Assembly: GCF_016598595.1 (NCBI RefSeq)
Contig: NZ_CP066787.1
Location: 62,001-126,000 of the forward strand
Length of the DNA stretch: 64,000 nucleotides
Direction of reading: 5' to 3'
Origin: Martelella lutilitoris
GTDB taxonomy: Bacteria; Pseudomonadota; Alphaproteobacteria; Rhizobiales; Rhizobiaceae
Shown here: piece by piece, positions 42,159 to 58,703 of the stretch
Numbering within the stretch: the first letter of the stretch is position 1
Layout: every line of letters starts with the position of its first letter
Position numbers and translations under genes: made by a program
The notes under the pieces: generated by a model
What the model saw: the letters and a program-made list of their open reading frames with translations, nothing else
Told to the model about the DNA's origin: nothing
The model's database searches: none

Positions 42159-42189
42159 TTGACCTTCCTGCGGTGGAAGACCTCACCTG
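42159..42189 (+). promoter_or_regulatory. CueR-type promoter of copZ
   Basis: TTGACC (42159-42164) followed by TTCCTGCGGTGGAAGACC, a CCTTCC/GGAAGA dyad. The -10 is poor (about TCACCT or CACCTG after 18-19 bases), fitting an activator-dependent promoter. It is back to back with the copA promoter. Confidence 0.7.
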
Positions 42190-42495: not shown

Positions 42496-43224
42496 TCAGT
42501 CGCTTTCCCGTGTCTTGTCGACCAGAGCCTCCAGTTGATCCTGTTCGACAAAGCCGGGCACGAGGTCGTCTCCGATCACGAAAGACGGTGTTCCGTTAAA
42601 GCCGAGCGCCTGGGACAGGCGCATCGACTCGTCGATATGCTCCTGCACTTCGGGTTCGTCCATATCGGTACGAAGTCGTTTGACGTCGAGCCCGATCTCC
42701 TCGGCCAGGCGCATGACCGATGCTTCCTCGGCACGTTCTTCCATACCCATCAGCGCCCAGTGAAACTCCTCGTATTTGTCCTGTTCCCTCGCGGCCAGGG
42801 CGGCTTTGGCCGCGAAGACAGACCCTTCGCTGAGAATGGGCCATTCGCGATAGACGAGCCGGACATCCTGGTCGGCATCGAGCAGCCCCTGAACCTCGGA
42901 CATGGCCCGTCTGCAGTAGGGACAGTTGTAGTCGAAGAATTCCACGACCGTGACATCGCCGTCGGGATTTCCGAGGACCGGCGCGTTCGGATCATGTTCG
43001 AGCGACTGGCGCTGGTTCTTCAGAACGTCGGCAGCTGCGTCTGCCTGCGTAGCCGCCTGCTGCTGTTCGAGCAACTGCACGGCTTCCATGATGATCTGCG
43101 GGTTTTCCCGGATCGCTTCCAGCGCCAGTTCCTTGATCCGAGCATCGCTCAGATCTTGCGCGAAGCCGGCAATCGGCGCGATAGCCAGACCAAGCGCCAG
43201 GGCTGTGGTTTTCATCGGGTGCAT
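42496..43224 (-). CDS. DsbA-family periplasmic thiol protein
   Basis: The 242-residue protein has a signal peptide ending GFAQ, a helical extension (about 30-75), then a thioredoxin fold with F-D-Y-N-C-P-Y-C (about 97). The DsbA-like helical insertion and the cis-Pro in F-N-G-T-P-S-F (about 210) are present. It would oxidise or reduce disulfides of periplasmic partners. It is the last gene of the operon with the multicopper oxidase and cytochromes. Start ATG 43224 follows AAGGAA. Confidence 0.88.
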   Translation of the reverse strand: MHPMKTTALALGLAIAPIAGFAQDLSDARIKELALEAIRENPQIIMEAVQLLEQQQAATQADAAADVLKNQRQSLEHDPNAPVLGNPDGDVTVVEFFDYNCPYCRRAMSEVQGLLDADQDVRLVYREWPILSEGSVFAAKAALAAREQDKYEEFHWALMGMEERAEEASVMRLAEEIGLDVKRLRTDMDEPEVQEHIDESMRLSQALGFNGTPSFVIGDDLVPGFVEQDQLEALVDKTRESD

Positions 43225-43226
43225 TG

Positions 43227-43706
43227 TCAATTTCCTTCTCTCTGGGCTTCGGCGGCGCTGCGTTCGGCCTGAATCTGCCGTTGCCGATCCGGCCATGTGG
43301 ATTTGATATAGGCGAGGATATTCCAGATCTGATCGTCGGTCAGTTGGTCGCCGAAACCGGGCATGCCGCTTTCAAAATCGACGCCCTGTGCGGCGAGGGC
43401 CGCCTTGCCGCCGAGCTTGGTGTAGTCGAAGAGCACGCTGTCAGAATGGTGCCATGTATGACCCGTTTCGTCATGCGGTGGGGCGGGCAACACGCCAGCC
43501 GGGCCCGGTGAATGCCAGTCGGGCTGACCCTCGAGATTCGCGCCGTGGCAGGAGGCGCAGTAGCCCTGGTAGAGGTCCTCGCCCTGCGCCAGATCGAAGT
43601 CTTCCGGAGCAGCACTGGTTTGGGTGCCGGCCTGCGTCATGAGCCAGGCACGTGCTGCCGCACCGGACACCAGAATGACGGTCAGGATCAGGTATTTCCG
43701 CATCAT
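43227..43706 (-). CDS. Monoheme c-type cytochrome
   Basis: The product has 159 residues, with an N-terminal signal/anchor and one heme site C-A-S-C-H (about residue 52). A later Met in G-M-P-G-F-G (about 114) is the probable sixth ligand. It resembles small class I cytochromes of electron transfer in the periplasm. Start at 43706 overlaps the multicopper oxidase stop by four bases. Confidence 0.85.
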   Translation of the reverse strand: MMRKYLILTVILVSGAAARAWLMTQAGTQTSAAPEDFDLAQGEDLYQGYCASCHGANLEGQPDWHSPGPAGVLPAPPHDETGHTWHHSDSVLFDYTKLGGKAALAAQGVDFESGMPGFGDQLTDDQIWNILAYIKSTWPDRQRQIQAERSAAEAQREGN

Positions 43707-45094
43707 GTCACCTCGAGCCACGTCATCATGCCCGAAGCCGCATGGCTCAGCATATGACAGTGAAACAGCCATTTTCCCGGGTTGTCGGCGACAAAGGCAA
43801 TGGTCCGGGTCTCGCCGCCGAGCATCAGCAGCGTATCGCGGAAGGGACCAAGGGCCGCGTCCTTGGTCACCTCGCGGAAATGCATCCCGTGCAGGTGCAT
43901 TGCATGGGGGAAGGACGTGTCGTTGTAGATTTCCAGCTTGATCGTCTCACCCACGGGCACGCTCACGAGCGGGGTGTCGGTCATCCCGATCGTCCCGTTG
44001 AAGGACCAGAACTGGTTTGCCTCGACCAACTGGCGAAAGCTCTTGCGTTCGCCGTCGAGGGTGGCGGCATCGAGTGTGCCCATTGCCCCGCCCTGCATAT
44101 TGAGCCGCGCCGTTACCGCTTTTTCCATGCCGGATATGTCCATGCGTGGGTTCGGGGGCAGGGGATGTGGCGACCCGCGCCGCGCCGCCGCCGCGCGGCC
44201 CGATACCGGAAACGCCACCTGTGAGACGCCCTCCTGATCCTCGACGCGCACAAGATGCGCTGTCTCGCCCGACGCCGCTGTGACGTCCACGATCAGATCG
44301 GCGCGCTGGCCCGGCCCAATGATCAGCACCTCACTTACTGGCTTGGGCTCGGACAGCGGCATGCCATCAAGGGCCACGGTCCAGCCTTCCATCCCGAAAA
44401 TCGAAAGAACGAATATCCGGGCGTTGGCGGCATTGATCAGCCGCAGCCGCAGGCGTTCGTTCTGCTTCACGTCCAGCGACAGATCAAAGCGCCCGTTGGT
44501 GGCGATGAAGTTGCCGCGCCGCCCGGCATGGCTGCGATCATGGCGTGACGTGAAGTCGGGGTCGATCTGTGCCGTTTCGGGATCGAGAAGCCAGTCGTCG
44601 AGGATCAATACCTCCTCGCGGTCGATATCCGGCGCCTCGGGCTCTTCCACGATCAGCGCACCATAGAGTCCGCGCGCGACCTGCTCGGTTGACCGGTTGT
44701 GCGCGTGATACCAGTAGGTGCCGGCGTCCGGCACCACGAAATCATAGTCGAAACCCTGTCCCGGTTCGACAGCTGGCTGCGTCAGCCCGGGAACCCCGTC
44801 CATCGCGTTGTCGATGCGGATCCCGTGCCAATGAACCGAACTTGCCTGCGGCAGTTCGTTCAGGAACGATCTCTGGATGCGGGCGCCTTGAGCCATCCGC
44901 AACTCGGGTCCCGGCATCGCGCCGTCATAGCCCCAGATTTCAGTCTTGGGATAGGTTGGGGGTGCAAGTTGGACGCGCGCGGGCCGGGCCTTGAGTTCGG
45001 CAAAGCGTGGCGTTGCAGCACGCGCCAGGGCCGGAACGGCCAGAGCCGCAATCGTCGCCGCGCCCTGCTCAAGAAATTCTCGCCGTGTCGTCAT
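43703..45094 (-). CDS. Multicopper oxidase, Tat-exported (CueO/CopA-type)
   Basis: The 463-residue protein has a twin-arginine signal (T-T-R-R-E-F-L) followed by a hydrophobic core. All four copper-binding motifs are present: H-W-H-G (about 84), Y-H-A-H (about 125), H-A-M-H-L-H-G (about 395) and H-C-H-M-L-S-H (about 443). It is a periplasmic laccase-like enzyme, probably oxidising Cu(I). Its c-type cytochrome neighbours suggest electron exchange; that is inference. Confidence 0.95.
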   Translation of the reverse strand: MTTRREFLEQGAATIAALAVPALARAATPRFAELKARPARVQLAPPTYPKTEIWGYDGAMPGPELRMAQGARIQRSFLNELPQASSVHWHGIRIDNAMDGVPGLTQPAVEPGQGFDYDFVVPDAGTYWYHAHNRSTEQVARGLYGALIVEEPEAPDIDREEVLILDDWLLDPETAQIDPDFTSRHDRSHAGRRGNFIATNGRFDLSLDVKQNERLRLRLINAANARIFVLSIFGMEGWTVALDGMPLSEPKPVSEVLIIGPGQRADLIVDVTAASGETAHLVRVEDQEGVSQVAFPVSGRAAAARRGSPHPLPPNPRMDISGMEKAVTARLNMQGGAMGTLDAATLDGERKSFRQLVEANQFWSFNGTIGMTDTPLVSVPVGETIKLEIYNDTSFPHAMHLHGMHFREVTKDAALGPFRDTLLMLGGETRTIAFVADNPGKWLFHCHMLSHAASGMMTWLEVT

Positions 45095-45143
45095 CTTTTC
45101 CGTGTCCTTGAAATGTGCGGGGCGATACGCCGCCCCGCCCGTG

Positions 45144-46085
45144 TCAATCGATGGTTTTGCCGATACTCGGCCTCCCCGCCAAAGCCCTGCCTTCCGGTAC
45201 ATCGCTGTCGAGAAGATAGATCGCCATCGCTTTCAAATCGGACTTTGAGAGGAACCGCGTTCCGTTCTGGACAACCTCACCCATGCTGCCGCCGAACACG
45301 TCTCCTGACGGGGTAACACCACTTTGCAGAGCATATGACAGATTGGCGACGGTCCATCCGCGATCTGCCAGATCGTCGGACAGGATTGATGGTGCCTTGT
45401 TTCCACCGGGCAGGTCGTCGTTGCCGGCAAAAACGGCATCTGGCATCCGGCCGCCCGCGAGGTTCCGACCGGTGTGACAGGCCCCGCAATGGGCGGCGCC
45501 GCGCACGAGTTGCCGGCCGCGGTTCCAGTCGACGCTCTTTCCTTCCACCGGTTCGGTCTGCGGATCATGCATGAAAAGCGCACGCCATAGTTTCAGGCCC
45601 CAGCGTTGGTTGAACGGGAAACCGACATCGTGCGGTGGTGCGGGGTTGGTTACCGGTGCGACGGTCTGGAATGCTGCCCACATATCGGCGACGTCCTGAT
45701 CGGAAAAATCCGCATAGAACGGATAGGTGAATGCCGGAAACAAGGGCTCGCCATCGGGCGAAACGCCCTGCCTGACAGTCATCGCGAAGTCAGACAGGCT
45801 CCAGTCTCCGATGCCGTGCTCGGGATCGGTGGTTATGTTCGGCGGGTAGAAGACGCCAAACGGGGTTTCGAGCGGGGCACCGCCCGCCAGCGGAGCGCCG
45901 CCATCCTCGAAATTCGTGTGACAGGCGATGCAACCGCTCGCGCGCGCCAGATAGGCACCGCGCTGGACATCGCCGGTCAACTCGATCTCGGCGGGCGGTC
46001 GGCCAATCGGCCAAACCACCAACGCCGCGATTGCCGCCGTGCCGGAAAGGGCAAGGACGGCAACACCTGCAAGAACCCGCCTCAT
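45144..46085 (-). CDS. Diheme c-type cytochrome
   Basis: The 313-residue protein has a membrane anchor or signal (about residues 1-26) and two heme sites, C-I-A-C-H (about 52) and C-G-A-C-H (about 200), each in a cytochrome c domain. The arrangement resembles the cytochrome subunit of alcohol/gluconate dehydrogenases, which usually has three hemes. It likely carries electrons in the periplasm or at the membrane. Confidence 0.88.
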   Translation of the reverse strand: MRRVLAGVAVLALSGTAAIAALVVWPIGRPPAEIELTGDVQRGAYLARASGCIACHTNFEDGGAPLAGGAPLETPFGVFYPPNITTDPEHGIGDWSLSDFAMTVRQGVSPDGEPLFPAFTYPFYADFSDQDVADMWAAFQTVAPVTNPAPPHDVGFPFNQRWGLKLWRALFMHDPQTEPVEGKSVDWNRGRQLVRGAAHCGACHTGRNLAGGRMPDAVFAGNDDLPGGNKAPSILSDDLADRGWTVANLSYALQSGVTPSGDVFGGSMGEVVQNGTRFLSKSDLKAMAIYLLDSDVPEGRALAGRPSIGKTID

Positions 46086-46086
46086 G

Positions 46087-46672
46087 TCATTTCACCTTCG
46101 CGCGGAAGCGGGTGTGACAGGACGAACAGGTGTCGCTGACCTTCGCGAAAACCGCGTTGGCGGGCATCTCGGCCAGTTCTTCGCGCCCCATCGTGTCATC
46201 GGCCATCATGTCACCACTGCCCATCATCGAGTTGGCTCCCATCATGTCGGAGCCGCCCATCATGGCGCTTGTATTCGACTTGGTGTCCGACTGACTTGCG
46301 GGTGCGTTGTCAGCGGCAAGAGCCAGGCCTTCGGCGTATCTGTGCAACTCCTCGGCCAGGCCTGCAAAGCTCTCCCAATCGTTCCATATGGCGTCTTTCG
46401 CGACCGATGGCATGCCTGCGCTGCCGTCCGGGAACAGACGGGTCATGGCATCGCCAGCGTGCATGCCGATGGTTTCCGCAGCGTGCCGCACGGTATCAGC
46501 ATCATACCCCGTCTCGCCGCTCATCATCGGGGCGACCGTGTTTCACGGCCTTGCCCATTGCCGACATCGCGTCCATGCGCTCCTTCACGATACCGGTCGC
46601 GCCGCTATGGGCGAGCGCCGCCGATGCCACGCCGACAAGCACGGCGGAAGTGATAATCCCTGTAGGTTTCAT
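46087..46672 (-). pseudogene. Cytochrome c' with a +1 frameshift
   Basis: The start ATG 46672 follows AAGGA. The first frame gives a signal peptide (ending ALAHS) and the cytochrome c' N-terminus A-T-G-I-V-K-E-R-M-D-A-M, then shifts at about 46538-46533, where one extra C in GTGAAACACGG ends it early at a TGA near 46501. The other frame continues correctly (M-S-G-E-T-G-Y-D-A-D) through to the C-terminal heme site C-S-S-C-H at about 46108. Removing one base restores about 194 residues. A Met-rich insert (A-M-M-G-G-S-D-M-M) sits before the heme. It is either a true pseudogene, programmed frameshift or sequencing error. Confidence 0.8.
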
Positions 46673-46673
46673 G

Positions 46674-47012
46674 TCATTGTCCTTCAAATCCTGATTTCGA
46701 GACGGGTCCGATCACGTGAGGAGGCCGGACCTTCGTGGTCGCGGCACGCCTGACGGGGTGTGCGCGCTCTGAATCCACCGTGATCGCCGCAAGTGCGCAG
46801 TCAATTCCCGGATGGCAATGTCCGAATGCCTCCTGGATGACAGTATGATCTTCGCCATGATCATCGTCGACCACGGCGTGCGTTGAGCTTGTCGCGGCGG
46901 GAGCAGAAGAATGGGCTTCAGCGCCCTGAGGGGTCAAGCCGAATGCGAAAAGCGCGCAGAGAATCATCGCGCGTAGCAAGCCGACAGGTTCGATTTTGCG
47001 TCTTTCGTTCAA
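46674..47012 (-). CDS. Small His-rich exported protein, unknown
   Basis: The product has 112 residues, with a signal peptide ending GAEAH. The mature part has many His (D-D-D-H-G-E-D-H, then G-H-C-H-P-G-I-D-C) and could bind metal. It overlaps the next cytochrome gene by four bases. No family is recognised; a periplasmic copper-binding role is inferred from composition and context. Confidence 0.65.
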   Translation of the reverse strand: MNERRKIEPVGLLRAMILCALFAFGLTPQGAEAHSSAPAATSSTHAVVDDDHGEDHTVIQEAFGHCHPGIDCALAAITVDSERAHPVRRAATTKVRPPHVIGPVSKSGFEGQ

Positions 47013-47467
47013 AAGATGCCGTTTTCCTTCTGAAGCTCACGAATGTAACGCGTGATCATTTTCACGTCGCCATCGGTCACACCCTCCACCGCCGGCATGT
47101 TGCCGAAGTTCCAGTGATGCGCACGGACGCCGTTTTTTGCCGCGAGGACGAATGCCATGTCGGAGTGATGGTTTGGCTCATAGGTCTTGTGTACAAGCGG
47201 TGGGGCGACGCCGTTCTGGCCCGCCGCATTCGCACCATGACACTCGGCGCATTTGGCGTCGAACGCCCGCTTTCCGATCTGCGCGTCCGCCGACAGTTCG
47301 GCGGGAAGCGCCACCTCGACGATCGGTGCGCCCTCGGCCAGGGTGCTGGTATCGGGCGGAATCATCGAATGGCCCGTGCCTTGCGTCGCCCGTTGCGTCG
47401 CATTCCAGTAGACCGCAACCCCCCCGACGAGAAAGAAGGCGACGATCGCCAGCAATGTCTTGTTCAT
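47009..47467 (-). CDS. Monoheme c-type cytochrome
   Basis: The 152-residue protein has an N-terminal membrane anchor (about 5-22) and heme site C-A-E-C-H (about 71). N-M-P-A-V-E-G-V (about 120) gives the Met ligand. It is a membrane-attached periplasmic electron carrier. It lies between the L,D-transpeptidase and the His-rich protein in the operon. Confidence 0.85.
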   Translation of the reverse strand: MNKTLLAIVAFFLVGGVAVYWNATQRATQGTGHSMIPPDTSTLAEGAPIVEVALPAELSADAQIGKRAFDAKCAECHGANAAGQNGVAPPLVHKTYEPNHHSDMAFVLAAKNGVRAHHWNFGNMPAVEGVTDGDVKMITRYIRELQKENGIF

Positions 47468-47500
47468 ACTTTTCTTGCCCCTCGCAACCGAATGCTTCGG

Positions 47501-48076
47501 TCAAATAAGTTTGACCTGTGTACCAACCGGCGATCTGTCGAAAACCCCGACAATTTGTTCGTTATAAAGGCCGATACAGCCATTCGACGATTTGCGACCG
47601 ATCTTGCGCGTGTCGTTGGTGCCGTGAATGCGATAGTACTGCCAACTCAGGTGCATGGCACGAATACCCAGCGGATTGTCCGGCCCGGGCGCCACATAGC
47701 GCGGCAGCGTCGGATCGCGCTCGATCATCGAGGGTGTCGGCGCCCAATCGGGGGCCTCATCCTTGAAGACCACTTCGGTATAACCGCGGCGTGTCAGCTC
47801 GTCGGACAACGGCACCGAGGTGGGATAGATACGCATCTCCCCATCGGCAGTCCAATGCTGGAGCACCCTGGTGTTCGTGTCCGAGAGCAGGATGCCTTTG
47901 CCAAGGCTGTCGAAGTGATCCTGCCAAGCGTGTAGCCGGAAGGAAGACATGTTGCGCCTCACCACGGACGCTTCCTCCGCCCGAAGGAGTGTTGGGGTCG
48001 CCAGCGCGATAACACCGCTGGCACCCGCCGCCAGAAATCCGCGCCGGTTGAGGGGCTTTTCGCCATTTTTTATCAT
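47501..48076 (-). CDS. L,D-transpeptidase (YkuD domain), Tat-exported
   Basis: The 191-residue protein has a Tat-like signal (N-R-R-G-F-L-A-A-G-A) and the catalytic motif H-G-T-N ... S-N-G-C-I-G-L (about 155-175). It is first in the copper operon, directly after a CueR-type promoter. Copper is known to inhibit L,D-transpeptidases (established in E. coli), so a copper-induced copy may replace lost crosslinking; that link is inferred. Confidence 0.9.
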   Translation of the reverse strand: MIKNGEKPLNRRGFLAAGASGVIALATPTLLRAEEASVVRRNMSSFRLHAWQDHFDSLGKGILLSDTNTRVLQHWTADGEMRIYPTSVPLSDELTRRGYTEVVFKDEAPDWAPTPSMIERDPTLPRYVAPGPDNPLGIRAMHLSWQYYRIHGTNDTRKIGRKSSNGCIGLYNEQIVGVFDRSPVGTQVKLI

Positions 48077-48114
48077 AACCTGCTCTCACATCTATTTCTT
48101 GCCTGTTTTAGCGG

Positions 48115-48145
48115 GATAAACCACCTTCCAGCACCGGAAGGTCAA
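48115..48145 (-). promoter_or_regulatory. CueR-type promoter of the minus copper operon
   Basis: TTGACC (48145-48140), a 19-base spacer TTCCGGTGCTGGAAGGTGG, then TTTATC (48120-48115). The near-perfect dyad ACCTTCCAGCACCGGAAGGT is inside. It starts the eight-gene operon ending at the 42445 terminator. Confidence 0.85.
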
Positions 48146-48192
48146 GCAGATGCCCCCTGACAAGACCGTGATTTTTGTATCGGTTTGTATCG

Positions 48193-48223
48193 TTGACCTT
48201 CCGGCGCAGGAAGGCTTTAGCCC
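48193..48223 (+). promoter_or_regulatory. CueR-type promoter of the plus copper operon
   Basis: TTGACC (48193-48198), a 19-base spacer TTCCGGCGCAGGAAGGCTT, then TAGCCC, a weak -10. It lies back to back with the minus promoter, about 50 bases away, and drives genes from 48254 on. Confidence 0.8.
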
Positions 48224-48253
48224 ATCTCCTGTATGCTTGGAGATGCAACGAAA

Positions 48254-48541
48254 ATGAATGAATCTGAAACTCCTGTTGAGAAATCGAGCACGATGCCGGT
48301 GATGAAATACGCCATGTGGGCCTGCTGCGCGGTAATGCTGCTTCCAATCGCAGCGTTCGTGATGACGGGGGGACTTGCGGGCGGATTGACCTCCGGGCTC
48401 TACGTCTTCGCACCTCTGCTTTTGTGCGTCGCCGCACATTTGATCATGCATCAGATGATGGGAAAATCATGCCATGATACGAAGAGCGAGCGGACCGATG
48501 ATGTTGCGATCCAGGTGGATCAAAAAGTAGCCGCCAATTAG
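48254..48541 (+). CDS. Small membrane protein, DUF2933-like
   Basis: The 95-residue protein has two membrane helices (about residues 16-37 and 45-65) separated by a Gly-rich turn, then the H-L-I-M-H-Q-M-M-G-K-S-C-H segment. The Met/His/Cys-rich tail could bind copper. DUF2933-type proteins are common in copper islands. It is the first gene under the plus CueR promoter. Confidence 0.7.
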   Translation: MNESETPVEKSSTMPVMKYAMWACCAVMLLPIAAFVMTGGLAGGLTSGLYVFAPLLLCVAAHLIMHQMMGKSCHDTKSERTDDVAIQVDQKVAAN

Positions 48542-48547
48542 GCCGGG

Positions 48548-48778: not shown

Positions 48779-48796
48779 TTGTGAAGGTGACGGGAT

Positions 48797-49567
48797 ATGA
48801 TTGAAGGACGGCGGAATACATTGGCAGTTCTTGCGACTGTTGCGGCCGCCTACGCCGGGTTTTGGTATTTTCCGGAACTCGGTTCGACCGAACTCAACTT
48901 CGAGGACGTTCAATACCCGCGGGGCTTTCGCAGGCTGTCCGCCAGCGAAAGCTCGAGCGGCTTCGATCTCTTCATCGGAATGAACGCCATGGGTCCGGAT
49001 AGTCTGGCGGATGCCGAAGCGCGGGTCAGGGCAGATATCTGCGGTGCGCTCTACGGCGATGACCTGTCTGCAACACAGCGCGTTCCGGTGGCGTTTTTTA
49101 CAGAGTATTATTGCCCTTATTGCCGTGTTCAGACCAGGACGCTTGCGGCGCTCGATGCACGTCCCGACAGCAACCTGCGTGCCATCTGGCACGAATTGCC
49201 GCTTCTCGGGCAATCGTCGGAGGTCGCGGCCAAGGCGGCGCTGGCGGCGAAACGCCAGGGTGCCTATGTCGCATTTCATGAACGGCTCATGAAATCCTCG
49301 TTTGTGGCGACACCGGAATATTTACAGGCTTTGGCGCGAGACATCGGTGTCGATCACCAACGTCTGATTACCGACATGCGAAGCGCCCCTGTTACCGAAG
49401 AATTGGAAAACAGTGCTGCTCTCGCACGGGTATTCGGCATTTTTGGAACGCCCGCCCTGATAATCGGGCGAACGATCATCCAGGGCCAGATCGATGAGAA
49501 GACCATTCTGCGTGTTGCCGAGATGGAAATCGAGGAAGATTGGACGTCCCAGTGTCAGACAGCGTGA
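48797..49567 (+). CDS. DsbA-family thiol protein, membrane-anchored
   Basis: The 256-residue protein has a signal or membrane anchor (about residues 8-26) and a thioredoxin fold with Y-Y-C-P-Y-C (about 109) and a cis-Pro region F-G-T-P-A-L-I (about 219). It probably works with the ScsB/DsbD-like protein encoded next, whose ATG overlaps its stop. The pair resembles the Scs copper-tolerance thiol relay. Confidence 0.85.
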   Translation: MIEGRRNTLAVLATVAAAYAGFWYFPELGSTELNFEDVQYPRGFRRLSASESSSGFDLFIGMNAMGPDSLADAEARVRADICGALYGDDLSATQRVPVAFFTEYYCPYCRVQTRTLAALDARPDSNLRAIWHELPLLGQSSEVAAKAALAAKRQGAYVAFHERLMKSSFVATPEYLQALARDIGVDHQRLITDMRSAPVTEELENSAALARVFGIFGTPALIIGRTIIQGQIDEKTILRVAEMEIEEDWTSQCQTA

Positions 49568-51681
49568 TGAACAAATTCTCGCGGCTTTTCGTCGCAAAGC
49601 TGATTCTGCTGGTCTGCCTCGGTTTTCTCGGCGCGGGGCTGGCCAGTATGTCGAACGCCGCCGAATCCGGGAGCTTTTCCAACCCGGCTCTCGAGGCGCG
49701 TCTGATCGCAGCCGAAAACGGAGTCGGCCCGAACGCGACGTCCCTGTCCGCCGGGCTGCATCTGGAGTTGGGCGAGGGCTGGAAGACCTATTGGCGGTCC
49801 CCGGGCGAGGTCGGCATCCCGCCCTCGATCGACTGGGCGGGATCGGAGAATGTGGAAGAGGTCGAATTGCTCTGGCCCGCCCCGGAACGGTTCACGGCCT
49901 TCGGGATCGAGAATTTCGGATATCACGACGAGGTCGTATTTCCGCTGCGTATCGCATTGTCCGACCCCGGCGCGCCGGTGCGATTGAACGCCAATGTCAC
50001 GCTTCTGACCTGCTCGACCGTTTGCGTCCCGCAGGAGTTCACACTGACCCTGTCGCTGCCACGAGCCAGCGGAATCGACGCGGATGCGGCGGCGCTCATC
50101 TCGGCCTATGCCGAAAAGGTGCCGGAGGAGGGGGCTGAGAGCGGTATCTCGATCCAGTCGGCCTATCTCGACCCGGACATGACCGCCCTGACGCTGGTCG
50201 CACACAGTGAGCGTCCCTTCGCGGGCCCGGATGTCTTTCCCGAACTGGGCGCGGGCACGGCATTCGGCAAGCCGGATATTCGTCTGGGCGACGGGGGCCG
50301 TCTGCTCTGGGCCCGATTGCCCGTTCTGAGCGCGGCCGCGGATCTGCCCGATCTGCGGATCACCGTGACCGATGGCGACCGTGCGGCCAGCCTGTTCACG
50401 GAGTTGGCCGATGCAGCACCGCAGCCGCCCTTCGCCCTGGACCGCGTGCTGCCGGGTCTGGCGGAACTGGCCTGGATCGCCGCAATCGCCTTCCTCGGCG
50501 GTCTTGTCCTGAACGTCATGCCCTGCGTGCTGCCGGTGCTCTCCATCAAGCTGTCCTCGGCGATGAAGAGCCGCGACCAGGGCGTGGGCCGTATTCGCAA
50601 GGGGTTTGCCGTCTCCGCACTCGGCGTTCTGGCGTTCATGTGGTCGCTCGCCGCTTTGACCCTCGCGGCGCGCGGTCTGGGGATGACCGTGGGCTGGGGG
50701 CTGCAATTCCAGAACCCCGTATTCTTGGCGGTGATGTTCATTGTCCTGGCCGTGTTTTCCGCCAACCTTTTCGGGGCATTCGAAATCGAGCTGCCGTCTT
50801 CCTTGCAGACCCGGCTCGCCCGCGCCGGCGGTGGCAAAGGCTATAGCGGCGACTTTGCGACAGGTGCCTTTGCCGCCATCCTCGCGACACCCTGTTCGGC
50901 GCCGTTCCTGGGCACGGCTGTTGCCTTTGCGCTGGCCGGGCGGCTGCTCGATATCGCGGTGATCTTCACGGCCCTGGGGATCGGTCTGGCCTTGCCCTAT
51001 CTCATCGTTGCCGCGTTTCCGGCGGCGATCTCGCGCCTGCCGAAACCGGGCCGCTGGATGCTGTGGCTGAAGATCCTGCTGGGGCTGGCATTGGCGGGCA
51101 CAGCCGGCTGGCTGTTCTGGGTGCTGATCGGTGTCGGTGGCATGACGTCCGCGCTTGCGGTTCTGACAGCCAGCGCAGTCCTCGTCGTGATTCTGTCTTT
51201 CAGTCGCCTGGCCGCAGGTGCTCGCTTGTCCGGGGCTGCGGCCACGGGCGCGTTGGCCATCTTCCTGGCGGGATTCCTTTCTGCGGCCGGCACGCCGAAC
51301 GCCAAGCCGGCGACGGACTGGGCCGCATTCGACCGTCGAGAAATTCCGAAGCTCGTGTCGCGCGGAGAGGTGGTTTTCGTGGATGTGACCGCCGATTGGT
51401 GTCTCACCTGCAAGGCCAACAAGGCGCTCGTGCTTGACCGCGCGCCGGTTCGAACGGCCCTTCGCGCGCCGGGCGTGACGGCGATGCAGGCCGATTGGAC
51501 CCGGCCCGACGAGGCAATCTCGCGCTATCTGGAGACCTTCGACCGCTACGGTATTCCGTTCAACGCTGTCTATGGACCCGGCGCTCCCGAGGGTATCGTC
51601 CTGCCCGAGCTCCTGTCGTCCGAAGCGGTTCTATCAGCGCTCGAGAAGGCGGCGGAGCGCGCGGTGGCGTCGGGCGGATAG
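49567..51681 (+). CDS. ScsB/DsbD-family thiol-disulfide transmembrane reductase
   Basis: The 704-residue protein has an N-terminal signal and a periplasmic domain with T-C-S-T-V-C (about 150). Eight membrane helices (about 310-590) contain N-V-M-P-C-V-L-P (about 320) and T-P-C-S-A-P-F (about 445). The C-terminal thioredoxin domain has D-W-C-L-T-C-K (about 615). This is the ScsB arrangement. It moves electrons from cytoplasmic thioredoxin to periplasmic thiols and so supports copper tolerance. Confidence 0.9.
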   Translation: MNKFSRLFVAKLILLVCLGFLGAGLASMSNAAESGSFSNPALEARLIAAENGVGPNATSLSAGLHLELGEGWKTYWRSPGEVGIPPSIDWAGSENVEEVELLWPAPERFTAFGIENFGYHDEVVFPLRIALSDPGAPVRLNANVTLLTCSTVCVPQEFTLTLSLPRASGIDADAAALISAYAEKVPEEGAESGISIQSAYLDPDMTALTLVAHSERPFAGPDVFPELGAGTAFGKPDIRLGDGGRLLWARLPVLSAAADLPDLRITVTDGDRAASLFTELADAAPQPPFALDRVLPGLAELAWIAAIAFLGGLVLNVMPCVLPVLSIKLSSAMKSRDQGVGRIRKGFAVSALGVLAFMWSLAALTLAARGLGMTVGWGLQFQNPVFLAVMFIVLAVFSANLFGAFEIELPSSLQTRLARAGGGKGYSGDFATGAFAAILATPCSAPFLGTAVAFALAGRLLDIAVIFTALGIGLALPYLIVAAFPAAISRLPKPGRWMLWLKILLGLALAGTAGWLFWVLIGVGGMTSALAVLTASAVLVVILSFSRLAAGARLSGAAATGALAIFLAGFLSAAGTPNAKPATDWAAFDRREIPKLVSRGEVVFVDVTADWCLTCKANKALVLDRAPVRTALRAPGVTAMQADWTRPDEAISRYLETFDRYGIPFNAVYGPGAPEGIVLPELLSSEAVLSALEKAAERAVASGG

Positions 51682-51735
51682 GGCGCGCTCTTCATGTGGG
51701 GAGGCATCAATAAACTGCCACGGAAAGGAGGTTCG

Positions 51736-52680: not shown

Positions 52681-53449
52681 CGGTTCGCTCCGCTTGTGGC
52701 TGGCACGCAAGCTGATCGGGCGCATCGTCGCCCGGGCGGCGGGGCGCGGCCTTGCCACGCGCGGCCTGCGCGACACGGAGGGGTGCGAGATCCGTTGGCT
52801 GACGCCCGAAATCGAGGCATTCGTGGTGGCGATGACCGCGGAAACCGTCCGCCTTCGCCCCCATGCGCAGCAGGCAGAGCTTCCGACTTTCGGTAGCCGG
52901 CTGATGGTGGAAATGGCGATCTGGACGATTGCAGCCGACCGCAGCCTGCGCGCTTGTGGCATCGCGCCCGAGACCGCGCGACAGGTGGTCGCCGATCTCG
53001 GCTGGGACATCTACCGGCGGATGCTGGCGCTCAGCGCATTGCCCGTGCGCCTGCTCACCCGCGATTCCGGCCGTCGGCTGCGCTGGACCATCCGCGCGCT
53101 GCTGGTGTTTCCCTTCGCGCCCTCCGGTGCGCCGGGTTACGCCGTTCGGGTCAGCCGGGACGGGGACGACCTGTTCACGCATTTCACCCATTGCCCGCCG
53201 CAGAGCTTCGTGCGCCGCATCGCCCGGGCGGAGGACGATCCTGAGTCGCTGGAGTCGTTCCGGCAGAGCTGGTGCCGCTACGACTGGCCCGGTGCCGACG
53301 TCATCGCCGGGGATGGCCAGCGCGGTCACTATCGCCGCCGGCGTACTCTGTCCCATGGCGACCCGGTCTGCGACATGTGCTGGATCGGGAACGCGAGCCG
53401 CGACGCAATAAGTGGCCAGGAGGACCGCGACGAGCCGGCGGCGTCCTGA
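52673..53449 (+). CDS. ATC-hydrolase-like protein (L-2-amino-thiazoline-4-carboxylate hydrolase family)
   Basis: The protein has 258 residues. The C-terminal region with H-Y-R-R-R-R-T-L-S-H-G-D-P-V-C-D-M-C-W (about 222-241) is characteristic of this family. The family contains hydrolases of thiazoline compounds in cysteine metabolism, but most members are uncharacterised. The start overlaps the end of the CDF gene. A link to cysteine supply under metal stress is possible but not shown. Confidence 0.7.
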   Translation: MSDGSLRLWLARKLIGRIVARAAGRGLATRGLRDTEGCEIRWLTPEIEAFVVAMTAETVRLRPHAQQAELPTFGSRLMVEMAIWTIAADRSLRACGIAPETARQVVADLGWDIYRRMLALSALPVRLLTRDSGRRLRWTIRALLVFPFAPSGAPGYAVRVSRDGDDLFTHFTHCPPQSFVRRIARAEDDPESLESFRQSWCRYDWPGADVIAGDGQRGHYRRRRTLSHGDPVCDMCWIGNASRDAISGQEDRDEPAAS

Positions 53450-53481
53450 GAGCGTGAACGAGAGAGGATCAGAACCGACCC

Positions 53482-54396
53482 ATGCGCACCATCCTGTTAC
53501 TGCTTCTCATCACCTTCTCGGAGGCGACAATCGGCGTCTTCGTCAAGCTGACAGGCGGTCTGATCCCGATCCACACGGTGAATTTCTACGCCATCCTCAC
53601 GGCCGCGCTGTTCCTCATGATTCTGATGCCGTTCGCAACCGGGAACCCGCTTCGCGTTCCGTGGAAGAACCTCAAGGACACCGCCATCATCGGTATGCTG
53701 ATCGCCACCCAGATCAGCGTCTTCAATTACGCCATGACCCTGGTGCCGATTGCCAACGCGGTCATTTTCTGGAGTATCGCGCCGTTCTTCACCTTCATAT
53801 TCTCGGCGCTGTTTCTCGATGAGAAAGCAAGCTGGGGTCACTACCTGACCTTCGCGGTCGCCATCATGGGCATTGTTCTCGCGAAACCGCTGGAGGGCGG
53901 ATACATGGTCGGAAATCTTGTCGCGCTTGCCGATGGGGCGATCTATGCCGCGATGATCACCTACATGCGCCACGAAGGCAAATCCGAGACCGGTAACGAC
54001 ATCGCCTGGTCCATGCTTGTTGCCGCCCTCGTGCTGTCGCCGGTGCTGGTGATCTTCGGACCCGGCGACATCATGGCAATGACAGTCAATGAGCGGATCG
54101 GCATTGCTGCTCCGGCCGGGCTCTGGGCGCTGATGCTGGGACTGGTCTCTACCGGGTTCGCCTATTTCGGCATCTCGCTTGTGCTGAAGACGCTGAACGC
54201 CAACGTCTATTCGCTGGTCGACATCATCGTATCGCCGGTGGTTGCGGCAACGCTGGGCTTTCTCGTATTCGGAGAGGTCCCGGCGACGGGCATGATCTAT
54301 GGCGGCGCGTTGCTTCTGACGGCCGGGTTCGTCCTGACCCGTCTGACCACCCGGGACGATCCAAACCTTGCGGCGCATCCCTGTCAGTGCACCTGA
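53482..54396 (+). CDS. EamA/DMT-family transporter
   Basis: The 304-residue protein has ten membrane helices in two EamA repeats, typical of drug/metabolite transporters. N-terminal T-F-S-E-A-T-I-G-V-F-V-K and a second repeat beginning D-G-A-I-Y-A-A-M are present. The C-terminal tail ends C-Q-C-T. The substrate is unknown. It is the last gene of the plus operon, convergent with ccmI. Confidence 0.85.
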   Translation: MRTILLLLLITFSEATIGVFVKLTGGLIPIHTVNFYAILTAALFLMILMPFATGNPLRVPWKNLKDTAIIGMLIATQISVFNYAMTLVPIANAVIFWSIAPFFTFIFSALFLDEKASWGHYLTFAVAIMGIVLAKPLEGGYMVGNLVALADGAIYAAMITYMRHEGKSETGNDIAWSMLVAALVLSPVLVIFGPGDIMAMTVNERIGIAAPAGLWALMLGLVSTGFAYFGISLVLKTLNANVYSLVDIIVSPVVAATLGFLVFGEVPATGMIYGGALLLTAGFVLTRLTTRDDPNLAAHPCQCT

Positions 54397-54432
54397 TCGC
54401 ATTGGCAGGGAAACCATAGCGCTGTTTCGGCC

Positions 54433-55599
54433 TCAGCCGGGCAGCTCTGACATCGCCTGCCGGATTTCCTGCGCACGCGGGTCGTCGGGAGGCAGGGTCT
54501 CGGCGAGCCTGTTGGCGGTCAGATATGCCTCCCGCGCCTTCGCCGCCTCACCGAGGACGCGATAGGCGTTGCCCAGTCGCATCCAGCCATCCAGGTCATC
54601 AGGGTCGTCCCGCAGCCGCTCGGCCAGCCGCTCAACCATCGAGCGAATAAAGGCGGCCCTGTCGTCCTCGCTCATGTCCGCTGCGGCGGCGACATCGCCC
54701 GCGGTGGGGCCCGGCGTATCGCCGCCAGCCGTGGGCGCGAATGCCGCGAGGCTGACCGGCTCGCGGCCGAGCGTCTCGCCGATGCTGTTGGCCTGCGCGA
54801 CGAACGCCTCCATCCAGGGCGCGGGGCCATTGGCCGCGTCCAGCCGGGCAATCAGCAGATCGTGGGCCTCCGCGCCGTCGCCCGCCTGATCGAGCGCGAT
54901 GGCCTCGTAGTACGTGGCCGCCGGATTGGACGGATCCATGTCGCGTGCCCGTCCGATGGCCGCGCGGGCCGCGGGCGTCACGATCCCGTCATCCGCGGCG
55001 ATCAGCGCCTCGGCGTATTGCGACAGGATGGCCGAACTGGCATCCGGGCGCTCGGTCACGTTCTCCATGGCGGATACCGCATCCCTGTAGCGGCCCATGC
55101 GCATGTAGGTTTGGCCAAGCAACATCCACCCCTCGGTCGGGCCACCGCCCGGATCGCTTTGCAGGCGCTCCAGCAAACGTACCGTCAACCCGGCGATTTC
55201 AACCTGCTGGTTTCGCTCCGCCTCACGCTCGGCGAACGCGATGCTCGGCATGTCGGGCGATCCCAGTTGCAGGTAGAGCGCTGCCGCGGCCACAGGCACC
55301 GTCAAGGCGGTCGCCCAGACGACGACGCCGGCGGAGCGACCCGACATGGCCGGCCGCGCGCGTTGGCCTTTCCGTTCCAGCGACAGGATACGCCGCTTGA
55401 TCTCGATCCGGGCGGCGCGGGCTTCCTCCGGCGAGATCAGGCCGCGTTCCGCATCGGCGTCCACCTCCCGCAGCTGATCGGAGAGGATGGAAATGGAGCC
55501 GTCGGTTCGGTCGGAAACCTTCGATCCGAAGGACCGCAGTGGAAGCAGCAGGAAACCTGCGGCAAGCAGCGCCAGAAACGCAAAGACAATCCAGAGCAT
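54433..55599 (-). CDS. ccmI: CcmI cytochrome c maturation protein
   Basis: The 388-residue protein has an N-terminal membrane helix (about 3-20) and a cytoplasmic loop ending with R-I-E-I-K-R-R-I-L. A second helix (about 92-110) follows, then a large periplasmic domain with TPR repeats (about 150-370; W-M-L-L-G-Q-T-Y-M-R-M-G-R-Y). CcmI binds apocytochrome c and hands it to CcmFH. ATG overlaps the ccmH stop (TGATG). Confidence 0.9.
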   Translation of the reverse strand: MLWIVFAFLALLAAGFLLLPLRSFGSKVSDRTDGSISILSDQLREVDADAERGLISPEEARAARIEIKRRILSLERKGQRARPAMSGRSAGVVVWATALTVPVAAAALYLQLGSPDMPSIAFAEREAERNQQVEIAGLTVRLLERLQSDPGGGPTEGWMLLGQTYMRMGRYRDAVSAMENVTERPDASSAILSQYAEALIAADDGIVTPAARAAIGRARDMDPSNPAATYYEAIALDQAGDGAEAHDLLIARLDAANGPAPWMEAFVAQANSIGETLGREPVSLAAFAPTAGGDTPGPTAGDVAAAADMSEDDRAAFIRSMVERLAERLRDDPDDLDGWMRLGNAYRVLGEAAKAREAYLTANRLAETLPPDDPRAQEIRQAMSELPG

Positions 55600-56075
55600 C
55601 ACGGCTCATTCCTTTCGCGCTGCGCCAACAGTTCGGAAACCCGGCGCTCTTCTTCGGCGCTCAGGCCTGCCTTCGCCTTGCGCCGACCGGACCTGGCAAG
55701 GACCGCGACCACACCGCCGGCCCCCAGCAAAAAGAGTGCGAGCGGCGTCAACCAAAGAGCATAGGTTTCCGGTTTGAATGGCGGTTTCAACAGGACATAA
55801 TCGCCATAGCGCGCCTGAATGTAATCCAGCACCTGCTGATCGGTGTCTCCGGCAACCAGCCTTTCACGGACCAGCAGCCGCAGATCGCGCGCAACGCCCG
55901 CGTTCGAGCTGTCGATGTCCTGGTTCTGGCAGACCACACAGCGCAAGTCTTTGGAGATCTCTCTCGCACGGGTCTCAAGGATCGGATCAGCCAGCATTTC
56001 GTCGGGTTCGACGGCATGGGAGGCAAGCGGCAAGGCGATCACGATCAGGATCGTCAGCACGACAATTCGGATCAT
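55599..56075 (-). CDS. ccmH: CcmH (CcmL-type) apocytochrome thiol reductase
   Basis: The 158-residue protein has a signal peptide ending S-H-A-V and the thiol motif L-R-C-V-V-C-Q-N-Q-D-I (about 44-54), then a C-terminal membrane anchor (about 108-128). It reduces the heme-binding cysteines before heme attachment. Its ATG overlaps the ccmG stop by four bases. Confidence 0.93.
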   Translation of the reverse strand: MIRIVVLTILIVIALPLASHAVEPDEMLADPILETRAREISKDLRCVVCQNQDIDSSNAGVARDLRLLVRERLVAGDTDQQVLDYIQARYGDYVLLKPPFKPETYALWLTPLALFLLGAGGVVAVLARSGRRKAKAGLSAEEERRVSELLAQRERNEP

Positions 56076-56635
56076 GTTCCCGCTCCTGTTGCAGCACGTG
56101 CCTGCGCGAGCGCGGTTGCGAACTTCTCTTCCGCCTCTGCGCCGACGACCGGGCCGACATAGCGGAAAAGAACCGTGCCGTTGCCCGAGACGATGAAGGT
56201 TTCCGGCACGCCTGAAATGCCCCACTCGATCCCGGCGCGGCCGTTCAGATCGGATCCGATCCGCTCATAGGGGTTGCCCAGGTTCTCCAGCCAGGCGCGC
56301 GCGTCCTCGGGCTTGTCCTTGTAGTTGATGCCCATGAGTCGCACGCCGCCCTGTTCGACCATTCGGGTCAGGACCGCATGTTCGGCCCGGCAGGGGACGC
56401 ACCAGGAGGCGAAGACATTGACCACGACCGGCGCAGGATTGTCCGTCAGGTCCGCCCGTGACAGGCCGGGCACACCCACGTGATCCACCGGCGCCAGATC
56501 GAATTCCGGTGCCGGCTGAGAGATCAGCACCGACGGGATCGCGTTCGGGTCGCGGCTTGGATTGAGGCCCCAGAGAAAGAAACCGCCGACAATCAGCGCA
56601 ATCAGGATCGGCAGGGCGGCGAGGGCTCGGGTCAT
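56072..56635 (-). CDS. ccmG: CcmG/DsbE thioredoxin-like cytochrome c maturation protein
   Basis: The 187-residue protein has an N-terminal membrane anchor and a thioredoxin fold with W-C-V-P-C (about 80) and cis-Pro in G-V-P-E-T-F (about 145). It keeps apocytochrome or CcmH thiols reduced. GGAG precedes the ATG. Confidence 0.93.
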   Translation of the reverse strand: MTRALAALPILIALIVGGFFLWGLNPSRDPNAIPSVLISQPAPEFDLAPVDHVGVPGLSRADLTDNPAPVVVNVFASWCVPCRAEHAVLTRMVEQGGVRLMGINYKDKPEDARAWLENLGNPYERIGSDLNGRAGIEWGISGVPETFIVSGNGTVLFRYVGPVVGAEAEEKFATALAQARAATGAGT

Positions 56636-56639
56636 GGAC

Positions 56640-58640
56640 TTACTCCGCCGGCGTTGCTTGTGGTTTCGGAATAGTAGCGCGGCGCGGCGCACCGACCCGC
56701 AGGCGCCGATCCGAAAGCGACAGACCGCCGCCCAGCACCAGAAGCGCCGCCCCGATCCAGATGAAATTGACCAGCGGCTCGTAGAGGATTCGCAAGGTCC
56801 AGGCCCCAGATTGCGCCGCGCCCTCCGCGGCCGGCTCGGCCAGCGAGGCGTAGAGGTCGCCCGCCAGCGTCGAGCGGATGGCAGATTCGGTGGTCGTGCT
56901 CTGGGCGACCGGATAGAAACGGCGCTCGGGGTAGAGTGTCGTGACGGGTGCACCATCGCGCGTGACCACCAGCGTGCCGCGGTCGGCGACATAGTTCGGA
57001 CCCTGCACCCTTTGGACACCGTCGAAGCGCACGTCGAAACCTGCGATCTCGGTCACGGCGCCGGATTGGACGAAAACAATTTTCTCGGATTTCCAGGCGC
57101 TCGACCCGACGAAGCCGAAGACCGCCACGGCAAGTCCCGCGTGTGCCAGCGTCATGCCGTGGGCCGCGCGGGGCAGGTTGCGCGCCCTCCGAACAGCCTG
57201 CGCGAACGGCACATCGAAGAGTCTGATCCGGGCCGCCCATTCCCGCAATGTCGCCAGAAGGAGCCAGGTGGCTATCGCGATTGGAAGATAGGCCAGGGCG
57301 GGCCCGCCCTCGGTCAGGTACCAGACCGCAAGTGCGGCCAGCCCTGACAGCAGCGCGACAAAGCGCAGGCGCTGGAATACCCCCTTCAGGTCGGCGCGTT
57401 TCCACGACAGGAGCGGCCCGACGGCCATGATCGCCAGCAACGGCAGCATGATCGGTATGAAGGACGCGTTGAAGAACGGTGGTCCGACCGAAATCTTCTG
57501 ATCGGCCAGGGCTTCGGTGAACAGCGGATAGAGCGTGCCGACCAGCACGGTTCCGGTGGCCACGACCAGCAGCAGGTTGTTGATCAAGAGGCCACCCTCG
57601 CGACTGATCGGCGCGAAGAGGCCGCCGCCTTCCATCGACGGGGCGCGCCAGGCATAGAGCGCGAGCGAGCCGCCGATGGAGAGGCCCAGCAGGCCGAGAA
57701 TGTAGAGGCCTCGTTCGGGATCGACGGCGAAGGCGTGGACGGATGTCAGAAGGCCCGACCGGACGATGAACGTGCCCAGCAGAGACAGCGAGAATGTCAG
57801 GATGGCCAGCAGGATCGTCCAGCTTTTGAAGGCATCGCGCTTTTCGGTGACGATGGCCGAATGCAACAGCGCCGTGCCCAGAAGCCAGGGCATGAAGCTG
57901 ACATTCTCCACCGGATCCCAGAACCACCAACCGCCCCAGCCCAGTTCGTAGTAGGCCCACCATGATCCGAGCGCGATGCCCGCCGTCAGGCTCATCCAAG
58001 CCGCCAGCGTCCACGGCCTGACCCAGCGGGCCCAGGCCGCGTCGACACGGCCCTCGATCAGTGCGGCAACCGCGAAGGAGAAGACGATCGAGAACCCGAC
58101 ATACCCGAAATAGAGAAGCGGCGGATGCATCGCCAGCCCCACATCCTGCAGCAGCGGATTGAGGTCGTTGCCATCCAGCGGCGGCGGGAACACACGTTCG
58201 AACGGGTTGGAGGTCAGCAGCAGGAAGGATAGGAATCCCGTGCTGATCCAGGCTTGCACGGACAGGGTCCGCGCCTTCAGCGCATCGGGAATGTTCGTCC
58301 CGAGCAGGGCGACACCTGCGCCGAAAGCCGCGAGGATCAGCACCCAGAGCAGCAGAGACCCCTCATGGCTTCCCCAGGTCCCTGCGATCTTGTAGAGCAT
58401 CGGCTTGAGCGAATGCGAGTTCTCGACGACATTCGCCACCGTGAAATCGCTGACCATGAAGGAGCGCATGAGGGCGGCGAACGCGATACCGATGAAAACC
58501 AGCTGAGCGAGCGCCGATGTCCGCGCACTCCGCATCCAGACCAGATCGCCGCGCGAGGCGCCGAGGATCGGTAGAACGCTTTGCACCAGGGCAATGATCA
58601 GCGCCAGTGCCAGCGCGAATTGTCCGATTTCAGGTGTCAT
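56640..58640 (-). CDS. ccmF: CcmF heme lyase subunit
   Basis: The 666-residue protein has about 14-15 membrane helices. The heme-handling WWD signature W-G-G-W-W-F-W-D-P-V-E-N (about 230) and the surrounding His residues are intact. CcmF transfers heme to apocytochrome c with CcmH and CcmI. It starts the operon ccmF-ccmG-ccmH-ccmI; ccmA-E are not in the window. A CueR-type promoter lies just upstream. Confidence 0.95.
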   Translation of the reverse strand: MTPEIGQFALALALIIALVQSVLPILGASRGDLVWMRSARTSALAQLVFIGIAFAALMRSFMVSDFTVANVVENSHSLKPMLYKIAGTWGSHEGSLLLWVLILAAFGAGVALLGTNIPDALKARTLSVQAWISTGFLSFLLLTSNPFERVFPPPLDGNDLNPLLQDVGLAMHPPLLYFGYVGFSIVFSFAVAALIEGRVDAAWARWVRPWTLAAWMSLTAGIALGSWWAYYELGWGGWWFWDPVENVSFMPWLLGTALLHSAIVTEKRDAFKSWTILLAILTFSLSLLGTFIVRSGLLTSVHAFAVDPERGLYILGLLGLSIGGSLALYAWRAPSMEGGGLFAPISREGGLLINNLLLVVATGTVLVGTLYPLFTEALADQKISVGPPFFNASFIPIMLPLLAIMAVGPLLSWKRADLKGVFQRLRFVALLSGLAALAVWYLTEGGPALAYLPIAIATWLLLATLREWAARIRLFDVPFAQAVRRARNLPRAAHGMTLAHAGLAVAVFGFVGSSAWKSEKIVFVQSGAVTEIAGFDVRFDGVQRVQGPNYVADRGTLVVTRDGAPVTTLYPERRFYPVAQSTTTESAIRSTLAGDLYASLAEPAAEGAAQSGAWTLRILYEPLVNFIWIGAALLVLGGGLSLSDRRLRVGAPRRATIPKPQATPAE

Positions 58641-58672
58641 GTCGATTCCTCGTCAATCTCTCGTTTTGGCGG

Positions 58673-58703
58673 TGCATGCCGCCTTCCCGGACTGGAACGT
58701 CAA
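58673..58703 (-). promoter_or_regulatory. CueR-type promoter of the ccmFGHI operon
   Basis: TTGACG (58703-58698), a 19-base spacer TTCCAGTCCGGGAAGGCGG, then CATGCA (58678-58673) on the minus strand. The dyad is less symmetric than at copA but has the same spacing, 33 bases before ccmF. Confidence 0.65.

Follow-up and report, generated by a model that had tools for sequence, protein, structure and literature searches.

A copper-associated plasmid island of Martelella with a multicopper oxidase-cytochrome operon and a candidate second heme-ligation set

We analysed a stretch of 64,000 nucleotides from Martelella lutilitoris (contig NZ_CP066787.1, forward-strand positions 62,001 to 126,000; hereafter the window, whose numbering is used for all coordinates), in which positions 42496-58703 combine an operon for a multicopper oxidase (MCO) and c-type cytochromes with genes for thiol proteins and an operon for cytochrome c maturation (Ccm). 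A preliminary description of this DNA had listed the MCO, two DsbA proteins, ScsB, CcmF, CcmG, CcmH and CcmI, all of which were found by domain matches. In our reading, to which we assign a probability of about 0.6, CcmFGHI and ScsB constitute a copper-inducible second heme-ligation set that shares the chromosomal CcmABCDE. Cu(I)-bound CueR would switch on an efflux ATPase, the thiol proteins and the MCO-cytochrome operon, from which a periplasmic MCO would be produced alongside cytochromes c. CcmFGHI would come under stress regulation, in the window perhaps through a CueR-type box and in the majority of relatives through a linked EnvZ/OmpR-type pair; the set would draw heme from the chromosomal CcmABCDE, be kept reduced by ScsB feeding CcmG and CcmH, and sustain cytochrome c maturation when copper disturbs thiols and the heme ligation of the housekeeping set. 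Its clients would be the island cytochromes and probably also the cell's own. That copper disturbs heme handling, as the description had assumed, is borne out by earlier work: PMC8456105 and PMC6247083 single out cytochrome c maturation as one of the main processes struck by surplus copper in the periplasm, and PMC11591864 likewise presents the Ccm pathway as hit by it.

An accessory CcmF lineage linked to ScsB

The maturation operon lies on the minus strand behind a box at 58681 and comprises ccmF (56640-58640; PF01578, PF16327), ccmG (56072-56635; TIGR00385, 154.4 bits against a cut-off of 123.15), ccmH (55599-56075; PF03918, with the motif LRCVVC) and ccmI (54433-55599; TIGR03142, 86.4 bits against 29.3). 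The CXXC motifs of CcmG and CcmH and the TPR of CcmI identify the products as System I proteins, with which they share motifs and domains. Unlike a complete System I, the island is restricted to ligation and thioreduction, in a single F-G-H-I operon with ScsB near and copper-type or two-component control, whereas 13 standard regions hold ccmF-ccmH with neither ScsB nor a two-component match from our query set. NrfEFG (like SirEFG) resembles the island in being an extra CcmF-CcmH(-CcmI) set that uses CcmA-E from elsewhere, but the island has an extra CcmG and no CXXCK client among the cytochromes of the loci; the NrfE and NrfF models TIGR03145 and TIGR03147 were not reached, although PRK10369 NrfE was (466 vs 394 bits). 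The proposal that CcmA-E come from elsewhere holds for CcmB and CcmE and probably for CcmC: the source genome's chromosome encodes CcmB once, CcmE once, a PF01578 protein beside CcmB that was taken as CcmC, and a second CcmF, in a search that covered these four. In another assembly of M. mediterranea, ccmF is in two pieces (G001:C6:156793-158791), either a frameshift or an assembly error.

Full-length CcmF copies of the locus genomes fall into two sets, with at least 75% and at most 61% identity to the window CcmF, some fragments lying between. In a tree of 84 sequences (quick method, midpoint root), the 13 standard copies were separated from all others by a branch with support of 99 / 99 in the SH-like approximate likelihood-ratio test. 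Ten rows labelled as sole CcmF copies were mixed among the copper-linked ones, with six changes, five of them forced by well supported branches; these rows represent nine genes (L153 = L165), of which L159 is a chromosomal copy beside two plasmid copies and L166 and L167 show 63-66% identity. In a draw of 198 genomes from the family of G061, this CcmF type (at least 70% identity) occurs in 17 and is the only CcmF found in six (G071, G141, G162, G181, G191 and G241), where a missing contig is possible; all three CcmF copies of G111 are of the accessory type. Among the histidines that include the heme ligands of CcmF, those at positions 92, 172, 260 and 302 are present in 71 of 71 accessory CcmF proteins and His 500 in 70; the string WGGWWFWDP is found in all 71, and in exactly this form in 3 of the 13 standard copies. 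The conserved histidines and WWD motif, and the genomes in which no other CcmF was found, support the view that the accessory CcmF is a working general lyase. The island does bring extra maturation genes, as had been claimed, but they are not its "own" in the sense of being tied to the island cytochromes. We also looked for residues that could have hardened this CcmF against copper: only six positions are diagnostic, none obviously metal-related, and its Cys/Met content is slightly under that of standard CcmF.

ScsB, a DsbD-type thiol reductase (49648-51681, plus strand; PF11412, PF02683, PF13899), accompanies this lineage. In eight of the nine loci L159-L167 its gene adjoins the ccm genes or, in L161, is one gene off, the exception being L160; no CcmI match was found in L167. 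Seven of the nine have no query-set copper gene in 12-19 kb; an MCO-like gene is present in L160, and the two-component pair in L161. ScsB was detected neither in the 13 standard ccmF regions (L176-L188, 14-15 kb) nor in L170, L189 and L190. The link to ScsB thus belongs to the CcmF lineage and is not confined to copper islands. Of the island stretches, 39 carry both ScsB and CcmI; the two are convergent neighbours in 23 of these, and in 33 no more than one labelled gene separates them. The combination of ScsB with an ScsC-type protein in the window is that of an Scs system, and the island resembles ScsABCD in encoding a DsbD protein akin to ScsB and a DsbA that bears an ScsC_N domain; it differs in that ScsB is linked to ccmFGHI even where no query-set copper gene is near. 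L159 and L162-L167, with ccmFGHI, ScsB and in several cases an ScsC-like DsbA, represent a chromosomal-type locus without query-set copper genes. The chromosome of the source genome also encodes a CcdA-sized DsbD_TM protein.

Control of the copper and ccm genes

The window encodes the Cu(I)-responsive regulator CueR (39132-39551, minus strand; NCBIfam TIGR02044, 162.3 bits, cut-off 147.4), a Cu(I)-exporting P1B-type ATPase (39565-42072, minus strand; TIGR01511, 596.8 bits, cut-off 397; a heavy metal translocating P-type ATPase in RefSeq) and, by sequence and annotation, a small heavy-metal-associated (HMA), CopZ-like protein (42214-42420, plus strand). Palindromic CueR-type boxes were scored against the CueR half-site ACCTTCC, with gaps of 5 to 9 and a maximum of 14. 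The box of the MCO-cytochrome operon (48123-48142, minus strand) scored 14/14 and that of DUF2933-DsbA2-ScsB (48196-48215, plus strand) 13/14, both with gap 6; 12/14 was reached by the ccmF box (58681-58700, minus strand, gap 6) and the HMA box (42162-42181), and 11/14 by the ATPase box (42107-42127). Mononucleotide shuffles gave 0.2 sites of at least 12 per 64 kb for one gap size, so that a lone 12/14 box over five gap sizes could be chance, whereas scores of 13 and 14 could not. An additional box (38644-38663, 13/14) precedes a DUF305 gene (37725-38606), and a short gene near the copper genes (37382-37609) is annotated as NADH-quinone oxidoreductase subunit A.

In relatives, the best score was taken from pieces of 281 bases upstream of each gene, with a threshold of at least 12/14. 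Boxes were present ahead of the L,D-transpeptidase gene (LDT, the first gene of the MCO-cytochrome operon) in 38 of 67 cases, DUF2933 in 39/60, the ATPase in 49/85, the HMA gene in 49/65 and DUF305 in 20/42; LDT and DUF2933, like ATPase and HMA, mostly share one intergenic region, so that the four counts depend in part on one another. The corresponding figures were 0/70 for CueR, 0/60 for ScsB, 0/23 for the SHOCT gene and 2/12 for ccmF, and 1.7% of 930 random pieces carried such a box. CueR-type boxes thus recur ahead of the MCO-cytochrome operon, and the placement of this operon and of DUF2933-DsbA2-ScsB under CueR-type promoters stands. With the Cue response (CueR, the CopA ATPase and CueO) the island shares CueR, its boxes, the P1B ATPase and an MCO; this MCO scores under the CueO and TIGR01480 cut-offs and is placed between cytochrome genes.

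For the CueR-type promoter that had also been assigned to the ccm operon, the window has a candidate in the 12/14 box, but in relatives a two-component pair mostly precedes the operon. This was seen in a survey of 72 accessory and 13 standard ccmF genes, in which 21 loci without a ccmF start were omitted, L164, L166 and L167 fell in neither class, and some of the 72 copies are near-identical or one gene in two loci. Within 1.6 kb upstream of ccmF, the kinase or SHOCT gene was found in the same orientation for 50 of 72 accessory and 0 of 13 standard copies; boxes of at least 12 precede 7/72 accessory and 0/13 standard copies, and boxes of at least 11 precede 13/72 and 1/13, respectively. In the window the corresponding minus-strand genes encode an exported YncE-like beta-propeller protein (58769-59782; PF21783), a SHOCT-domain membrane protein (60006-60320; PF09851), an EnvZ-like sensor histidine kinase (60317-61726) and an OmpR-like response regulator (61726-62448). 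A copper-specific two-component system was considered and rejected, kinase and regulator missing the cut-offs of the CopRS/CusRS families (TIGR01386, 117.7 of 292.55; TIGR01387, 139 of 279.2). The beta-propeller protein has a His-rich loop, and in L009, L010, L015 and L016 YncE-family genes likewise lie close to ccmF or to the MCO operon.

Envelope enzymes encoded on the island

Besides the Ccm proteins, the island supplies second copies of other copper-sensitive functions. In the MCO-cytochrome operon, the first gene encodes an L,D-transpeptidase (YkuD, 47501-48076, minus strand; PF03734), which had escaped the preliminary description, and the last encodes DsbA1, an ScsC-like DsbA (42496-43215, minus strand; PF01323; PF18312 ScsC_N, 31.1 bits, cut-off 25.8; CPYC). 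On the plus strand, the box at 48196 is followed by genes for a DUF2933 protein (48254-48541; PF11666), DsbA2 (48797-49567; PF01323) and ScsB. For relatives, genome contigs were scanned by MCO alignment and the best 80 of 544 loci were kept as a sample of close relatives, beside 13 long plasmid stretches. The transpeptidase LDT1 is encoded in 69/80 loci and 10/13 long stretches, and lgt in 8/13 long stretches vs 3/80 of the shorter loci, neither being found in the 13 standard ccmF regions; petA occurs in 4/80 and 3/13. Copies of petA (Rieske iron-sulfur subunit) are annotated in the copper islands L006, L011, L014 and L195.

The island might accordingly be a kit that merely duplicates copper-poisoned envelope enzymes (L,D-transpeptidase, Lgt, Dsb/Scs, Ccm and Rieske) with no special cytochrome chain. 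This possibility, which overlaps with our reading and is the least improbable of the alternatives, fits the distribution of LDT1 and lgt, and according to PMC9302775 both LD-transpeptidases and the maturation of lipoproteins are inhibited by copper, which also leads to incorrect disulfide bonds. However, the cytochromes and the MCO are the most constant part of the loci (which were chosen by MCO), and lgt and petA are not constant.

Co-occurrence of the extra CcmF with the diheme cytochrome

NrfEFG serves a single heme of NrfA. By analogy, CcmFGHI could attach heme only to the island cytochromes, chiefly the diheme cytochrome CytB and the cytochrome c' CytC, a specialization that we regard as rather doubtful. 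It would account for the distribution of the accessory CcmF, which is present in 46 of 59 locus genomes with cytB vs 2 of 16 without it (Fisher p = 2.7e-6; G012, without any CcmF, was dropped, L023 and L082 were left out, and G071, in which the accessory CcmF is the only one, was counted). In the family draw, cytB occurs in 11 of 11 genomes with an extra CcmF copy and in 18 of the other 187 (raw Fisher p = 1.0e-10), and an extra copy is found in 0 of 34 genomes with an MCO (at least 51% identity) and no cytB, or 0/35 if an MCO fragment of 248 residues from G231 (67% identity) were included. Two MCO-positive, cytB-negative genomes, G181 and G241, carry the accessory lineage as their only CcmF.

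On an MCO tree of 74 rows (omitting L021, L023, L029, L030, L050 and L082), 10 changes were counted for the extra copy and 9 for cytB; a paired test on well supported branches found 5 and 7 independent pairs, about three of them concordant, none opposite and the rest without difference. A dependence of the extra CcmF on cytB, which the small raw p values had suggested, was not significant in this test and is kept as suggestive. Specialized clients are further disfavored by ordinary CXXCH motifs, and by the six family-draw genomes in which this lineage is the only CcmF found, so that general cytochromes can be matured. An unusual heme motif that would require a special lyase was sought in the cytochromes of the loci (other genome proteins were not scanned) and discarded: C..CK occurs in none of 88 CytA, 71 CytB, 68 CytC and 87 CytD proteins.

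The multicopper oxidase-cytochrome operon

From the box at 48123, the operon runs on the minus strand through the genes for the L,D-transpeptidase, CytD, a small exported protein, CytC, CytB, the MCO, CytA and DsbA1. CytD (47009-47467; PF00034, CAECH) and CytA (43227-43706; PF00034, CASCH) are monoheme cytochromes c with an N-terminal hydrophobic segment. CytB (45144-46085) has two CXXCH motifs and can be aligned for the greater part of its sequence to cytochrome subunits from membrane alcohol, fructose and glucose dehydrogenases (solved chains 8gy2_B, 8hdd_B and 7w2j_C), but is shorter (313 vs 444-486 residues in the five best chains) and differs from the alcohol and fructose dehydrogenase subunits in its two CXXCH motifs and MCO neighbour. 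CytC is a Met-rich cytochrome c' whose signal-peptide part (46502-46672) and heme part (46087-46527; PF01322, one CXXCH) are in different frames. Consequently, of the four c-type cytochromes announced for this operon, all four genes are present and three are intact. The identical break occurs in L004, L017 and L018, of which L018 belongs to another genus, and the gene aligns in one frame in L019, L020, L023, L054 and L058. CytC of relatives averages 10% Met (68 proteins), and 63 of 65 have at least six Met within the 60 residues preceding the heme motif. The small exported protein between CytD and CytC (46674-47012) matches no family and carries GHCHPG(I/L)DC, possibly a copper ligand; it had tblastn matches in 8 of the 93 stretches L004-L096, that in L007 being a piece without the motif.

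The MCO (43703-45094) has three domains (PF07732, PF07731, PF00394), 4f7k as its nearest solved chain and an N-terminus, TTRREFLEQG, that looks like a twin-arginine signal. It missed the cut-offs of the CueO model (140.6 of 525 bits) and of the copper resistance oxidase (CopA) model TIGR01480 (197.6 of 478.95 bits). Its neighbours were counted, among query-set genes, for 92 MCO copies with at least 50% identity in L004-L096. The preceding gene is cytB in 67, cytD in 22 and LDT in two copies, with none in one; the following gene is cytA in 86, DsbA1 in two and cytC in one, with none in three. A cytochrome gene thus precedes the MCO in 89/92 and follows it in 87/92, and the co-occurrence search, which had been set beforehand as a test that could refute the proposed module, recovered the pairing in other genomes. 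Loci such as L015 and L016 have a smaller form, cytD-MCO-cytA. No type 1 or trinuclear copper ligand varies among the 90 homologs compared (130 MCO-like matches, minus 40 with identity below 50% or length outside 400-580), and oxygen reduction is therefore expected to be kept.

The constant gene neighbourhood, together with a 4-base overlap between the MCO gene and cytA, makes it probable that the MCO and its cytochromes exchange electrons, in either direction. The preliminary description had suggested a cuprous oxidase whose electrons may pass to cytochromes instead of only to oxygen, in which case electrons from Cu(I) would leave the MCO partly via CytA, CytD and CytB to the quinone/cytochrome pool. 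The flanking cytochromes, the gene overlap and the likeness of CytB to membrane dehydrogenase subunits would suit this, but with the oxygen centre intact, cytochromes would be unlikely to take the place of oxygen, which remains the expected acceptor, and no fused MCO-cytochrome protein was found among the best 120 of 7302 homologs (7999 candidates scored); we consider such coupling unlikely. Equally unlikely, in our estimate, is the reverse flow, in which cytochromes would feed the MCO as a copper-induced cytochrome c:oxygen oxidase: the identical gene pairing, the intact oxygen-reducing centre and scores far under the CueO and CopA cut-offs are in its favor. A wider scheme seems to us rather unlikely: a copper-induced chain in which the dehydrogenase-type diheme cytochrome and both monoheme ones link the MCO to the respiratory pool, built by a CcmFGHI-ScsB unit that is more copper-tolerant than the housekeeping set and has become the sole heme-ligation machinery in several lineages. 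MCO and cytochrome c genes also stand together in ncgABC-nirK of Nitrosomonas; that cluster is tied to nitrite reductase and has a two-domain MCO.

Plasmid setting and earlier reports

In a search of plasmid records, positions 42496-58703 aligned over their full length to pMM259 of Martelella mediterranea DSM 17316 with 100.0% identity, and the window is the copper portion of this annotated, conjugatively typed plasmid. Matches to the same positions were found in 103 of 72,556 records, mostly from marine roseobacter genera, with at least 80% query coverage in two. The region is probably a mobile copper-defence island. That its genes are unrelated and were simply gathered on one metal plasmid is very improbable: the plasmid setting, the insertion sequences nearby (L007) and the minimal cytD-MCO-cytA loci L015 and L016, with no ccm beside them within the stretches examined, would allow it, but many genera share one gene order, whether on plasmids or on contigs of up to 1.6 Mb, and the boxes and the two-component pair are conserved. 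Identical DNA (100%) is also present in CP070277.1 (150234-166348), a record labelled Dysgonomonadaceae that is perhaps mislabelled or derived from a mixed sample.

PMC5613091 describes pMM259 and lists two copper-export operons, the word "cytochrome" being missing from the main text as accessible. The statement that no described system has the full set needs qualification: a heme-ligation set paired with metal genes had been mentioned in print, without mechanism, for D. shibae pDSHI03 and a 185-kb relative, and the retained D. shibae paralogs named in PMC3091735 include multicopper oxidase and MerR-type genes. The literature search, with subscription journals mostly outside it and several sources available only in part, found no published function for the gene combination. 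Plasmid LR027556, from the study PMC6308992, contains the entire island. In its accessible form that study reports MCOs and P-type ATPases in copper, with no "cytochrome" in the main text; its genes PEPIB2_172/173 are near a different MCO-like gene (about 166 kb on LR027556, by a rough gene count), and neither observation is used here as proof. PMC9426580 reports unchanged copper resistance for a 102-kb D. shibae copper-gene plasmid, which may or may not carry the island. Nothing decisive came from PMC9044938 or PMC5071866.

Discussion

Several points weigh against a copper-inducible second ligation set. The cytochrome c' gene of the window itself is broken, and after kinship correction the pairing of extra CcmF and cytB is not significant (median p 0.25 and 0.125, range 0.0625-0.5). 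The extra CcmF is missing from 18 of 29 sampled cytB genomes, and 13 of 59 locus genomes lack this type, so that it is not required. Kinase and regulator score below the CopS and CopR cut-offs and need not sense copper. No expression or phenotype data for the island genes were found. The alternatives considered above are not mutually exclusive: a backup ligation set, spare parts and electron flow in one direction or the other could all be true at once.

The island looks like a natural way of protecting cytochrome c maturation from copper. It supplies a multicopper oxidase with cytochrome genes inside its operon, and a second CcmFGHI that is separable from the housekeeping set and is carried on plasmids of cultivated marine bacteria. 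Two questions thereby become testable, namely whether bacteria protect Ccm itself from copper and whether a Ccm module receives its reducing power from ScsB.

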